Assembly (NCBI GenBank): GCA_020721775.1
Contig: DYLZ01000002.1
Location: 1-62,664, forward strand
Length of the DNA: 62,664 nt
Reading direction: 5' to 3'
From: Sulfurovum sp.
GTDB taxonomy: Bacteria; Campylobacterota; Campylobacteria; Campylobacterales; Sulfurovaceae
The position numbers were made by a program, and so were the translations under genes. How positions within the stretch are numbered: the first letter of the stretch is position 1; the number at the start of each line of letters is the position of its first letter. Of the stretch, positions 196 through 57,189 are shown piece by piece. Under the pieces are notes generated by a model. That model was not told the origin of the DNA and made no database searches. It was given only the letters and a program-made list of their open reading frames with translations.

Positions 196-1203
196 TCATG
201 CTACGACTATATCTATCCCTATACTTTTCATATCTTCATAAATTTTTTTCGCTAAATAATAGCCAAGACAAGGAGGAACTGCATTGCCTACCATCTTATA
301 TCCTGCCATTACATTAGTATAATAGAATTTGTGAGTATCCGGAAATGTTTGAATTCTTGCACACTCTCTGACACTTAATCTTCTATATAGATGCTCATAA
401 TTCTCTACAAAAACTCGCTTATTTTGTTCTACAAACTGCATCTTTGGTGCTTGCGGATGGATCGGCGCATGCCTACCGCCTGCTTGTATAGTAAATGATG
501 GTTCGTCCCAGCTCCTCACACGATTTCTTGACATAAAAATTGTTGAAAAGCTTCCTATAGCATATTCGTGATTGTCGATATGGCATTTATTGCCATTAGT
601 ATAGTTTTTTTCTCTTGCCGGTAAGGCATTGTCTTTTATATCCCAAATCACATCTTTGAGATATCTTTTTGTATTAAATCCTTTTGGAAATTCGAACTCT
701 ATGCCCAGATCATCTCTATAGCCTACAAAAAATACCCTTTTTCTATCTTGTGGGACTTTGTAATCATGGGCATTTAACATCTTAAATGATAGTTTGTAGC
801 CACTTTCCCTAAAGTGATTTTTGATATTTTCCAGTGCATCACTATGACGCCTTGCAAGCATTCCTGATACATTTTCAGCCAAGAAAAATAGTGGTTTTTT
901 ATCTCTAAGAACTCTTATAAATTCAAAAAACAACTGTCCTCTATGGTCATTTATGCCACGAGATTTTCCCGCTTCACTCCAACTTTGACATGGTGGACCA
1001 CCGATAAGCCCTATGGCATCGGGAATTTCACTTGATGGAATATCTACTATACTCCTCCTATCAAGCTTTGTACTTGGAAAGTTTTTCTCAAAAGTCTCTC
1101 AAATATCTTTGTCGTATTCATTTGCCCAAATGGTTTTAAATCCTGCTTTTTCAAAACCTAGATCTAAACCGCCAGCACCGCTGAAGAGGGAGATGATGTT
1201 CAT
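196..1203 (-). pseudogene. C5-cytosine DNA methyltransferase, M.NgoPII/M.HaeIII-like, interrupted by an in-frame TGA at codon 35
   Basis: Minus strand from 1203 reads [43 protein letters not shown]...IGGPPCQSWSEAGKSRGINDHRGQLFFEF, then continues in the same frame into the listed 245-aa ORF (ENVSGM, RKRVFFVGYR, SFTIQAGGRHAPIHPQAPKM, VGNAVPP). The stop is at 1101-1099. Confidence 0.88.
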
Positions 1204-1842
1204 TTAATTACTTTTAAAATTGAATAAATTTTTTGAATTCAAAAAATCGTGTTTATTATTTACTTCTTCAACATTTCCAATAGGTTCTCCAAATAATTTA
1301 AAATCTTTTAATTTCAGAGGTTTAATATAATCCAAACTATACTGTTTATATATTTCTCTTAATTCCATCAATAAACGCCCAAGTATATTCATTCCTTTAT
1401 ATTCTGCTCCATCAAAATAAGCACCCCAGAAATTATCTTTTGTCGATTCTTCAACAATATTTTTTGAACCCGTCTCTAACAACAATCTTCCAAAAGTTTC
1501 TTTATTTTGAATAAGTTTTACTCTTAATACCCATTTCATTATTGCTATTTTTATTTGTTCCCAATCTTCTCTAGTTTGTGAACGATATTTTTTTGATTTC
1601 ATTTTGGCTGTCATTGGGCTTGACTCGTTAATAATAATCATTTGTACCTTTGGTAAATGAGGGAATCTCATTGCTTGATATAAAGCTTCTGAAGATTTAA
1701 TATAAATCCCATTTACTACGATTGGATAACCAGAAGCCATATTGGATAATCCACCATATTTTTCAGTTGTTTTTCTAAATGATATACATTCATTCACTTT
1801 ATATATTCGTGTTTCTTCTTCAGGATTCACTTTATATCCCAA
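1204..1842 (-). CDS. NADAR (YbiA/DUF1768-like) domain protein
   Basis: YGGLSNMASGYPIVVNGIYIKSSEALYQAMRFP and DNFWGAYFDGAEYKGMNILGRLLMELRE motifs; stop codon directly abuts the methyltransferase ATG. Confidence 0.85.
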   Translation of the reverse strand: MGYKVNPEEETRIYKVNECISFRKTTEKYGGLSNMASGYPIVVNGIYIKSSEALYQAMRFPHLPKVQMIIINESSPMTAKMKSKKYRSQTREDWEQIKIAIMKWVLRVKLIQNKETFGRLLLETGSKNIVEESTKDNFWGAYFDGAEYKGMNILGRLLMELREIYKQYSLDYIKPLKLKDFKLFGEPIGNVEEVNNKHDFLNSKNLFNFKSN

Positions 1843-1862
1843 TTAAATTTTATAGTAGGTAA

Positions 1863-2873
1863 CTATTTTGGATAAGTTTTTCTTTGGAATAATGGATACC
1901 AAATAGAATTACCATTCCAATCACCCCACCAAAAAGCTAAAGGAGTGTTATTAGGACAATTCCGATAACTAAAAAGTAAAGCTCCAAATCCAAAACCTGC
2001 GAAAGAAGATATACCCAAAGGTTTCCATTTTTTTCTATCTATTTCATTGATTTTACTAATAATATTTAGGCCTGCAAGAGTAAATTCTTCTTCGAGTATT
2101 GCTCTATTTGTTTCAGATGAAAAAATCGTTTTTCCACAGTGTGCATTAGCTATTTGATTCGTATCCCTAAGTATATAATTAGTCCCTTGAGTTTTTAAAT
2201 ATGCTAAAACATCTGGATTAGTTAAACATTTTTCACTTGGCCAAAGAACTTCTGAGACATTTTGACAATTTGGATTGTTTTCTAATTCTTCCAATCTCCA
2301 AAATGTTATTTTAATATTATTTGGATTCTCTGTACCTAGCTCTTGGTTGGCATGATATTGCCCATTTTTATAATAAGCTATATAAATAATATCAAGACTA
2401 GCATCTTTAGGAGCAGTTTTGAGCCAATCAATTAAATCTGTTTTTAGTCTATTTCCAGTAAATAAAAAATCATCAAGATGAATAAAATGTTTTTTTGTTA
2501 AATCATTAATAGAAATATCAATATTTTTTTCTTGTTTAATAATCTGCTTGAACTTTTCATTCATTAATTCTTGACTTTTACCATTTTTTTGAATTTGTAG
2601 TAATGATGCTTCTTCCCAAAAATTCGGATTATTTTTTGTTAAATTCGTATTCGATATTAAACCGTTTAAAAATCTATCCAATTCATTTTCACACAAATAT
2701 CTTTGTTCAAAAATATGTATCATCTCTTCTAAAATTAGTAAACGATTTTCTTCACTAAACTGTGCCACCCATTTTAAAATATTTTCTTTTTTGGGGTTTA
2801 ATCCTTCTGATTGTCTATAATCTTTTAATTTTTTTGCCATTTCTTCTGCTAAATCTTGTTGCTCTATATTCAT
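1863..2873 (-). CDS. PRTase-CE-like (phosphoribosyltransferase-like) protein
   Basis: PRPP-loop-like LDDFLFTGNRL and C-terminal CPNNTPLAFWWGDWNGNSIWYPLFQR motif, typical of the conflict-system phosphoribosyltransferase-like family. Confidence 0.7.
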   Translation of the reverse strand: MNIEQQDLAEEMAKKLKDYRQSEGLNPKKENILKWVAQFSEENRLLILEEMIHIFEQRYLCENELDRFLNGLISNTNLTKNNPNFWEEASLLQIQKNGKSQELMNEKFKQIIKQEKNIDISINDLTKKHFIHLDDFLFTGNRLKTDLIDWLKTAPKDASLDIIYIAYYKNGQYHANQELGTENPNNIKITFWRLEELENNPNCQNVSEVLWPSEKCLTNPDVLAYLKTQGTNYILRDTNQIANAHCGKTIFSSETNRAILEEEFTLAGLNIISKINEIDRKKWKPLGISSFAGFGFGALLFSYRNCPNNTPLAFWWGDWNGNSIWYPLFQRKTYPK

Positions 2874-2882
2874 TTGAAAATC

Positions 2883-3017
2883 CTATTTTCTATTGCTTAA
2901 TACTTTATAATCATACCTTAGATTATATTGATTGATAGATTTAATAATTAACTTTTTATCAATATTATAATCTAAACTCATTTGTTTGATATCTAAATGA
3001 TTTATATCTATATACAT
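2883..3017 (-). CDS. Small uncalled ORF (44 aa) between the REase fragment and the PRTase-CE-like gene
   Basis: ATG at 3017 to TAG at 2883: MYIDINHLDIKQMSLDYNIDKKLIIKSINQYNLRYDYKVLSNRK. Confidence 0.4.
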   Translation of the reverse strand: MYIDINHLDIKQMSLDYNIDKKLIIKSINQYNLRYDYKVLSNRK

Positions 3018-3021
3018 GACA

Positions 3022-3381
3022 TTAAATATTTACATTATTTTCTACAAAATGTTCTGGGAATAGTTTTGCTTTGGGATATGAGCTATTAAGAGCTATTGCG
3101 GTGCTATGTGATTCTATCTTTTTTATCTCTATCGCATCACTATTTTTGAGTATCAAATCGGGCGGGTTGTTTTTATTACCGCTGTAAGAATAAATTTGTG
3201 AAAATGCGGCTAGTCTATTTTGTTCATTTGTTTCATTTATCGTTCCTGCAAAAATATCTTTGACAAACTCCTCTAGCCCATCGCCCATATTATTGGCACG
3301 ATTATTTCCATTTGTCAGAGTTGAAACATTGGCTTGATAATTATTAACAATATTGATAAATGCCCTAAGTATATTTGACAC
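3022..3381 (-). pseudogene. NgoPII-family restriction endonuclease, N-terminal fragment
   Basis: NNRANNMGDGLEEFVKDIFAG...NPPDLILKNSDAIEIKKIESHSTAIALNSSYPKAKLF; stops at 119 aa whereas family members are about 270-280 aa. Confidence 0.75.
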
Positions 3382-3466
3382 AAAATCACCTTTTTTCGAT
3401 TTATTTTATAATCTTATCTAAAAAATTATATATAGATTTATAAATATGTCAAAATGTCATATTTTT

Positions 3467-4180
3467 TTATTTGCCGACAAACGAAGCAACAAGTCCTATA
3501 ATCCCGCCAAAAACGCCGCCCCATACAACAAGCCAGCCAAGATGTTCCCTAATAAGTGTTTTTATGAGATCTTTTACCATAGCAGGAGTTAATTCATTTA
3601 ACCTGTTTGTTACTATTATCTCTATGGAATTTATCAAGTCATGTTGAAAACTTGTACTGTTTATATGGTTTTTTATCTCTTCATGAAAAGAGTTTGATTT
3701 TACTATTGAGACCAAAGAGGCTCTTAATTTGTCCAAAAATTGCTCCCTAAAAGATTCCAACACACTCTCCCCGCCAAACATTCCTATCAGACCGCCAAAT
3801 TTTGACTCCATGATAGTGCTTTTTAATGCATCAAAAGCCCTGTTCATATCAACATTTGCAACAACGCCTGATATATCTATCTTCATCTCTTCGGTATTTA
3901 GAAAATTTTGAATATTTTTTTTACTAAAAAACTGCTCCATCATCATATCTTTGATAGATTTTTTAAAAACTTCAAAATTAAGCTCAATTATCCCGGAACC
4001 GTACAAAAATGGTACTTTTTCAAATAACATATAGATAGCAAGCCAATTTGTAACAGCACCCGAGAGTGCATAAAACCCCATATCAAATAGATGTTTTGAC
4101 AAAATTGTCGGAACAAAAAAAGATATTGCCACTATCAAAAAAGCTGTTAAATTTGTCAAAACTGATTTATCTATATTCAT
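3467..4180 (-). CDS. DUF445 family membrane protein
   Basis: GAVTNWLAIYMLFEKVPFLYGSG motif; C-terminal TM GGVFGGIIGLVASF. Confidence 0.75.
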   Translation of the reverse strand: MNIDKSVLTNLTAFLIVAISFFVPTILSKHLFDMGFYALSGAVTNWLAIYMLFEKVPFLYGSGIIELNFEVFKKSIKDMMMEQFFSKKNIQNFLNTEEMKIDISGVVANVDMNRAFDALKSTIMESKFGGLIGMFGGESVLESFREQFLDKLRASLVSIVKSNSFHEEIKNHINSTSFQHDLINSIEIIVTNRLNELTPAMVKDLIKTLIREHLGWLVVWGGVFGGIIGLVASFVGK

Positions 4181-28393: not shown

Positions 28394-28412
28394 TTTGCCT
28401 CTTTTAAAATAA

Positions 28413-28519
28413 TTGAATCCTCTGAATAAATACTGATGCCAGGCAGCTCGAAGGCGTTAGCTAGCGAGGTTTCTGTCGTGGCAAACTCTTGGCTTGAATG
28501 GTTTGTTTAGAGGGTTCAA
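28413..28519 (+). repeat. Dispersed MITE-like inverted-repeat element, copy 2
   Basis: TTGAATCCTCTGAATAAATACTGATGCCAGGCAGCTCGAAGGCGTTAGCTAGCGAGG...GTGGCAAACTCTTGGCTTGAATGGTTTGTTTAGAGGGTTCAA. Confidence 0.9.
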
Positions 28520-28556
28520 TTTAAATTATAGCAAAAGAGTATTGAGAGCTTTTAAT

Positions 28557-56169: not shown

Positions 56170-57089
56170 AAAAAGTTGCCATTAGTGTCGGCGATCTAAA
56201 CGGTATCGGCATAGAATTGATTTTAAAAAATCATGATATTGTCTCAAAAATGATCGAGCCGTTTTATATCATTGATAAAGAAATGCTTTATCAAGTTTGC
56301 AAATTGCTTGATATTGATATACCGTCAAATTTCAAAACTATTTCTCCAAACTCAAAATATTTCAATATACAAAGCGGCGAAATATCAAAAGAGAGCGGCG
56401 CATACAGTTTTGACTCGTTTAAAAAAGCTGTTGAATTGGCGCAAAATAATGAAGTCGATGCTATATGCACTTTACCAATTCATAAAAAAGCATGGGAACT
56501 TGCAGGAGTGCCTTACAAAGGACATACGGATGCTTTGAGAGATTTTTGCAACACAGATGCTATTATGATGCTTGGATGTCCAAAACTTTATGTTGCTCTG
56601 TTTACGGAGCATATACCTCTAAAGAGTGTTCCAAATGCTTTAACATTTGGAAAATTAGAAAAATTTTTGCTTGATTTTTACAGTTCTGCAAAACCTAATA
56701 GCATAGTTGGGGTACTTGGACTCAATCCACATGCCGGAGACGGCGGGGTTTTGGGAAATGAAGAAGAAATTATCACGAGCGCAATACTTGGCGCAAATGA
56801 AAAAATAGGCAATAAAATTTATAATCCAACTCCGCTTGTACCCGACATTGCCTTTACACCTAATGTGCGTAAAAATTATAAATATCTTATTGCGATGTAT
56901 CATGATCAAGGTTTGGCGCCGCTAAAAGCGCTATACTTTGATGAAAGTATCAATGTATCTCTTAACTTGCCGTTTTTGAGGGTTTCGGTTGATCACGGAA
57001 CTGCATTTGATAAAGCTTATAAAAAGGCAGACATTAGCGGAGCAAGCTATATAAATGCTATAAAATATATAATTGAATCCTCTGAATAA
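56157..57089 (+). CDS. pdxA: 4-hydroxythreonine-4-phosphate dehydrogenase
   Basis: ISVGDLNGIGIELILK; GHTDALRDF; GLNPHAGDGG; YHDQGLAPLKAL. Confidence 0.94.
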   Translation: MHKVKKVAISVGDLNGIGIELILKNHDIVSKMIEPFYIIDKEMLYQVCKLLDIDIPSNFKTISPNSKYFNIQSGEISKESGAYSFDSFKKAVELAQNNEVDAICTLPIHKKAWELAGVPYKGHTDALRDFCNTDAIMMLGCPKLYVALFTEHIPLKSVPNALTFGKLEKFLLDFYSSAKPNSIVGVLGLNPHAGDGGVLGNEEEIITSAILGANEKIGNKIYNPTPLVPDIAFTPNVRKNYKYLIAMYHDQGLAPLKALYFDESINVSLNLPFLRVSVDHGTAFDKAYKKADISGASYINAIKYIIESSE

Positions 57090-57189
57090 ATCCTGATAGA
57101 CAATTTTGCCAGGCATGTCGAAGGCGTTAGCTAGCGAAGTTCCCGTCGTGGCAAACTCTTGGCTTGAATGGCTTGTTCAGAGGGTTCAA
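57073..57189 (+). repeat. Dispersed MITE-like inverted-repeat element, copy 3 (overlaps the pdxA 3' end)
   Basis: TTGAATCCTCTGAATAAATCCTGATAGACAATTTTGCCAGGCATGTCGAAGGCGTTAGCTAGCG...GTGGCAAACTCTTGGCTTGAATGGCTTGTTCAGAGGGTTCAA. Confidence 0.9.

Follow-up and report, generated by a model that had tools for sequence, protein, structure and literature searches.

A DS-32-type PRTase-CE and NADAR gene pair inside a decayed NgoPII-type restriction-modification operon of Sulfurovum

The genome of Sulfurovum sp. contains two adjacent genes, one for a PRTase-CE protein and one for a NADAR protein, that, by their profile matches, order and conservation, almost certainly represent the anti-phage system DS-32. 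The pair is lodged between the two broken genes of an NgoPII-type restriction-modification (RM) operon, and comparison with relatives indicates that this R-M junction is very probably a recurrent site of defense cassettes in this bacterial order. The stretch of DNA that was analyzed, hereafter the window, spans 62,664 nucleotides. A first-pass annotation of the window had presented the pair as a candidate conflict or defense cassette. The pair itself is not novel, being already named as an anti-phage system; the new points are its placement and the phosphoribosyl reading of its chemistry.

A DS-32 pair between broken restriction-modification genes

Read 5' to 3' on the minus strand, the unit comprises a fragment of an NgoPII-type restriction endonuclease gene (3022..3381, 119 aa), a 44-aa open reading frame (2883..3017), the DS32_1-type PRTase-CE gene (1863..2873, 336 aa), the DS32_2-type NADAR gene (1204..1842, 212 aa) and an interrupted gene for a HaeIII/NgoPII-type C5 cytosine methyltransferase (196..1203). 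The five reading frames lie where the annotation had placed them, and the motifs it quoted are present. The PRTase-CE and NADAR genes are intact immediate neighbors on the same strand, with the PRTase gene first and a gap of 20 bp, and the TAA of the NADAR gene (1206-1204) directly adjoins the ATG of the methyltransferase gene (1203-1201). The NADAR gene starts with TTG, a GTG a few codons further in being an alternative start. The unit is flanked by the genes for a DUF445 protein and tetrahydrodipicolinate succinyltransferase, that is, by ordinary chromosome, in an assembly of 1.2 Mb in 67 contigs that is about 96% complete.

Given that the 44-aa frame (3017-2883) has no match in Pfam and no relative in any of the loci compared, it probably is not a gene; PADLOC yielded no match either. 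Its candidacy as a third component of the system was rejected on the same lack of relatives in any locus. A promoter-like site, TTGACA-16-TATAAT (3425..3452, minus strand), matches the consensus at 12 of 12 positions and lies 44 bp upstream of the start of the endonuclease fragment, in a scan whose hits overall were at chance level; it could possibly be the promoter of the whole unit. Terminator-like sites were absent from positions 2700-3500 in a scan of that interval, which, together with the perfect promoter-like site, fits a single transcript. The GC content of the cassette, 23-30% compared with about 36% in the methyltransferase gene, is as expected for import, and where a recombinase might have left short repeats, at either end of the cassette, only weak ones of a chance-like kind were detected.

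A separate feature of this genome is a repeat of about 120-130 bp, found in the window at 36-165, 28401-28533 and 57061-57187 and at about 18 other places. On one strand, the repeat folds as a long hairpin (z -4.7), and it matches no Rfam family; the roughly 21 copies in the host genome compare with 0 in 39 relatives, of which 10 belong to the same genus.

Both RM genes are decayed. The endonuclease fragment matches positions 1-109 of the 262 in the Pfam RE_NgoPII model (PF09521, E 4.8e-46), and alignment with intact relatives shows that it consists of residues 1-110 of about 281, followed by a short unrelated tail. The methyltransferase gene, of which relatives carry intact copies, contains a single in-frame TGA at codon 35 (1101-1099), and the parts on either side both match DNA_methylase. 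With 109 of 262 endonuclease model positions covered and the methyltransferase interrupted, the operon does not qualify as a functional NgoPII-type RM system, and the intact pair has, as the annotation proposed, outlived its host RM genes. The break in the endonuclease gene near codon 110 recurs at four loci with different cargoes, namely the window (3040-3080), L156, L157 and L159, and the contig of L155 ends at that point. At L157, the C-terminal tail of the endonuclease is still kept past the break, which indicates an internal deletion beside the cargo at that locus. Among the loci where both RM genes could be judged, truncated endonucleases occur mostly where cargo is present (the window, L156, L157, L158, L160 and L208); partial or decayed endonucleases without cargo are found at L161, L204, L205 and L207.

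The NgoPII R-M junction as a site of defense cassettes

The usual arrangement in relatives has the NgoPII R and M genes side by side, with a gap of -22 to +4 bp. Among the 46 NgoPII loci with both genes judgeable, 26 have abutting genes (two of these with a decayed M gene) and 20 carry cargo of 0.84-3.3 kb, on the same strand and precisely between R and M. The Eco47II-type RM loci of the same relatives, examined as a control, include none with cargo among the 27 in which both genes were visible (22 abutting and 5 fused). The difference between 20/46 and 0/27 is significant (Fisher p 1.8e-5), also at a cargo count lowered to 15 in view of cargo types that loci share (p 1.8e-4), and it bears out the earlier suggestion that the pair had entered an RM defense hotspot.

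Of the 20 cargoes, 18 match defense or RM profiles. Apart from the DS-32 pair in the window, they encode a CBASS cyclase with a 2TM effector (L168), AbiJ_NTD4 (L169, L173), AbiTii (L163, L174), AbiU (L175), TIR proteins with PDC-M50 (L176), a PDC-S26 nuclease with a small toxin-antitoxin-like pair (L157), a PDC-S45 protease (L172), an IetA-like ATPase (L177), Mrr-type nucleases (L162, L196, L199), an AAA_15/AAA_21 ATPase (L200) and the products of other RM genes (L158, L160, L208). The remaining two cargoes, which encode proteins of 309 aa (L156:4649-5578) and 613 aa (L198:2562-4403), have no Pfam or PADLOC match and are candidates for new defense genes. A limited literature search, which can say little about novelty, found no description of this hotspot, so the junction is apparently undescribed so far; it offers a ready place to seek further defense genes.

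Identity and spread of the pair

The domain calls of the first-pass annotation were upheld by profile searches, in which the 336-aa protein scored 153 bits with the PRTase-CE profile (PF24390, E 1.4e-44; cut-off 27) and the 212-aa protein matches NADAR (PF08719, E 6.5e-27). Both proteins also match the NCBIfam anti-phage equivalogs, NF053875 (DS32_1_antiphage) with 315 bits at a cut-off of 250 and NF053876 (DS32_2_antiphage) with 271.4 bits at a cut-off of 240, and the NADAR protein additionally matches TIGR02464 (80.9, cut-off 73.7). The DefensePredictor study (2026) confirmed 42 DS systems by validation in E. coli, and a PRTase and NADAR domains are listed among them (PMC13092281). The DS32 families most likely correspond to DS-32 of that work, the link being made through the family name since the main text does not contain "DS-32" (PMC13092281). 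The equivalog matches and DefensePredictor (PMC13092281) support the conflict or defense role that had been suggested for the pair.

The pair is present in E. coli chromosomes, where PGAP names the products phosphoribosyltransferase-like and NADAR family anti-phage proteins, and the NADAR stretch of the query was matched in 62 of 5,426 E. coli genomes. The window pair and DS-32 have both genes, their order and their spacing in common, whereas the locations differ, the pair of the window occupying an RM operon junction and the E. coli copies examined lying in a lambdoid prophage, with the replication gene P on one side and the nin region on the other.

Across 95 loci (69 from genomes, 21 from viral collections, scanned with PRTase peptides only, and 5 others), the NADAR gene lies directly downstream of the PRTase gene on the same strand in 94, at a spacing of -104 to +33 bp. 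The starting alignment consisted of four NADAR-linked members, so this proportion applies to the present PRTase subfamily rather than to PRTase-CE proteins in general. Most of these loci lack RM genes, and the pair thus recurs without dependence on RM, as had been surmised. The range of the pair encompasses Gammaproteobacteria, Bacteroidota, one Sulfurovaceae relative and single assemblies of other phyla, and extends to plasmids and prophages. The PRTase protein was unmatched in phage records, and a distant DNA search of plasmids did not find the pair. The lone exception, L091, has a frameshifted PRTase gene and no NADAR gene. At three further loci (L109, L110 and L111), a damaged PRTase gene accompanies an intact NADAR gene, and no intact PRTase gene without NADAR was found. 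The distances among the PRTases and among the NADARs are correlated (Mantel r 0.82, 0 of 2000 permutations), the NADAR being the better conserved protein, with 36-54% identity to relatives compared with about 22-36% for the PRTase. No third recurrent gene emerged among 109 genes flanking the pair, the largest cluster having 3 members, and PADLOC families among the neighbors are represented by at most 2 members each.

Three loci (L054, L064 and L073) contain two tandem PRTase genes ahead of a single NADAR gene. In the nearest pair-bearing relative (L011/L171), the pair ends a same-strand row with type I RM and SIR2-like genes (L171 2148-11350).

Fold, binding residues and possible chemistry

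The PRTase-CE protein contains a PRPP-loop-like motif, LDDFLFTG, at residues 133-140, and the C-terminal CPNNTPLAFWW...YPLFQRK. Its AlphaFold model (pLDDT 89) displays the type I PRTase pattern, with strand 129-137, a PRPP loop in which two acidic residues are followed by T/S-G, and helix 141-153. Type I PRTases head the Foldseek list for the model (best E 5.7e-4, prob 1.00), with uracil PRTase, PyrR and HGPRT the closest, although the fold matches are weak and distant (best E 6e-4, target-based TM about 0.4-0.56); a sequence search of solved structures with this protein returned nothing significant. No variation occurs in 84 homologs at D134, D135 and G140 of the PRPP loop, nor at R236, R257, R304, N305, N308, P311 and W315.

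The NADAR model (pLDDT 92.6) is similar in fold to YbiA (2b3w, TMt 0.76, 36% identity), and the Phytophthora NADAR with ADP-ribose (8bau) was matched with TMt 0.69. In the Phytophthora protein, the distal ribose and the phosphates are enclosed by E43, E125, K50, W89 and W133, and the adenosine is bound by Y84 and D86. The catalytic E52 and the subfamily-defining E131, which aligns with a Glu of YbiA, are present in 84 of 84 DS-32 NADARs, and the phosphate and distal-ribose residues are retained as well (R or K59, K80, W94, D136 and W139). The position of D86, which contacts the adenine-proximal ribose, is taken by R91 in 84 of 84, as in YbiA, and the position of the adenine-stacking Y84 is variable. 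In 75 of the 84 NADARs, the phosphate-binding position has changed from K to R, a substitution that in another NADAR kept in vitro activity and lost antitoxin function against DarT1. By sequence and predicted fold, the NADAR of the window is YbiA-type: it shares with YbiA/COG3236 the fold, the catalytic Glu, the Arg at the W-3 position and the TIGR02464 match, and it differs by the pairing with a PRTase, the defense context and a C-terminal extension.

The riboflavin intermediates on which this family acts are 5-phosphoribosylamino-pyrimidines. YbiA/COG3236 acts as an N-glycosidase on intermediates of the riboflavin pathway (PMC4921024, PMC11543638). Taken together, a transferase that uses PRPP and an adjoining glycosidase of the YbiA type suggest 5-phosphoribosyl as the group that is attached and taken off again. 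In the mechanism that we propose, DS-32 rides as cargo in the NgoPII-type R-M junction and is probably transcribed from the promoter of the operon. The PRTase-CE protein would be the effector and would move 5-phosphoribosyl from PRPP onto a target nitrogen, for which, on the basis of the fold and the invariant motif, we see about an even chance; nucleobases, nucleotides, nucleic acids and proteins are candidate targets. That the YbiA-type NADAR hydrolyzes the resulting N-glycosidic bond appears slightly short of evenly balanced, and if so, NADAR would most likely serve as an antidote that guards the cell until infection upsets the balance. The entire chain, from DS-32 as hotspot cargo through the phosphoribosylating effector to NADAR hydrolysis, is advanced tentatively, and with a little more reserve still we suggest that DS-32 acts by reversible phosphoribosylation, either with an antidote or as a PRPP-burning cycle, and that the NgoPII R-M junction is an interchangeable defense slot on a restriction promoter. 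An effector-plus-reversal reading of the pair, as such, is plausible. A literature search found no mechanism for DS-32, which is listed as an anti-phage system.

The decay asymmetry of 3:0, with NADAR surviving damage to the PRTase gene and never the reverse, fits an antidote, though three cases are too few to prove one. The same loci bear on a different use of this chemistry, in which the two enzymes together are the weapon: the PRTase would load phosphoribosyl on a base or small molecule and NADAR would release it, so that PRPP is converted to ribose-5-phosphate and pyrophosphate and phage nucleotide synthesis halts. A donor and a hydrolase activity would together complete this cycle, separation of the two genes is very rare, and NADAR is the better conserved partner; nevertheless, three loci hold NADAR without a working PRTase, which an antidote fits better, and we regard PRPP wasting as unlikely. 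Less probable still is the chemistry emphasized in the first-pass annotation, an ADP-ribose toxin-antitoxin module in which an ADP-ribosyl-type group, produced or transferred by PRTase-CE, is taken off guanine by NADAR, following the pattern of DarT1-NADAR and YarT-YbiA. NADARs including YbiA hydrolyze guanosine-ADP-ribose in vitro, and a YbiA is the antitoxin to YarT (PMC11543638, PMC11125620); E. coli YbiA itself can strip guanosine of ADP-ribose in vitro (PMC11125620), so that residues of the YbiA kind are compatible with ADP-ribose, and the catalytic residues are retained in the DS-32 NADARs. The partner, however, shows a PRPP loop and the fold of type I PRTases, not that of an ADP-ribosyltransferase, and the NADAR is YbiA-type. 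The retention of the distal-ribose and phosphate residues along with the loss of the adenosine contacts favors phosphoribosylation or PRPP wasting over ADP-ribose chemistry. A DarT partner was considered and rejected, given that the genome yields no DarT match and that the partner of this NADAR is PRTase-CE.

It is very improbable that the two genes are functionless passengers in a dead locus: the RM genes on both sides are indeed broken, but the PRTase and NADAR frames are full length, all invariant catalytic residues are in place and both proteins exceed the equivalog cut-offs. A detached retron effector, that is, the toxin PRTase of a type III-A retron minus its reverse transcriptase and msDNA, with an incidental NADAR, is hardly credible. 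Type III retrons do carry PRTase effectors (PMC12548924), and the PADLOC PRTase_III-A profile matches the protein, albeit distantly (best E 1.5e-11), but NADAR is present in nearly all relatives. A retron origin was rejected on the lack of any RVT_1 match in the genome, at the completeness given above, and of a retron RNA family in the window, where the sole Rfam match is a tRNA.

DS-32 has features in common with several known systems. It shares a homologous PRTase domain with the effectors of type III-A retrons but has a NADAR partner in place of a reverse transcriptase and retron RNA. The DarT1-NADAR and YarT-YbiA pairs likewise place a NADAR/YbiA hydrolase beside a presumed transferase effector, which in those systems is an ADP-ribosyltransferase and in the window has the PRTase fold. 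With this residue pattern, the mechanism of DS-32 can be put as a direct biochemical question of phosphoribosyl versus ADP-ribosyl; if true, reversible phosphoribosylation would be new chemistry for phage defense. PRTase-CE is also shared with operons at L010 and L012, where it is accompanied, instead of NADAR, by an N6 methyltransferase and an ORC-CDC6-like ATPase.
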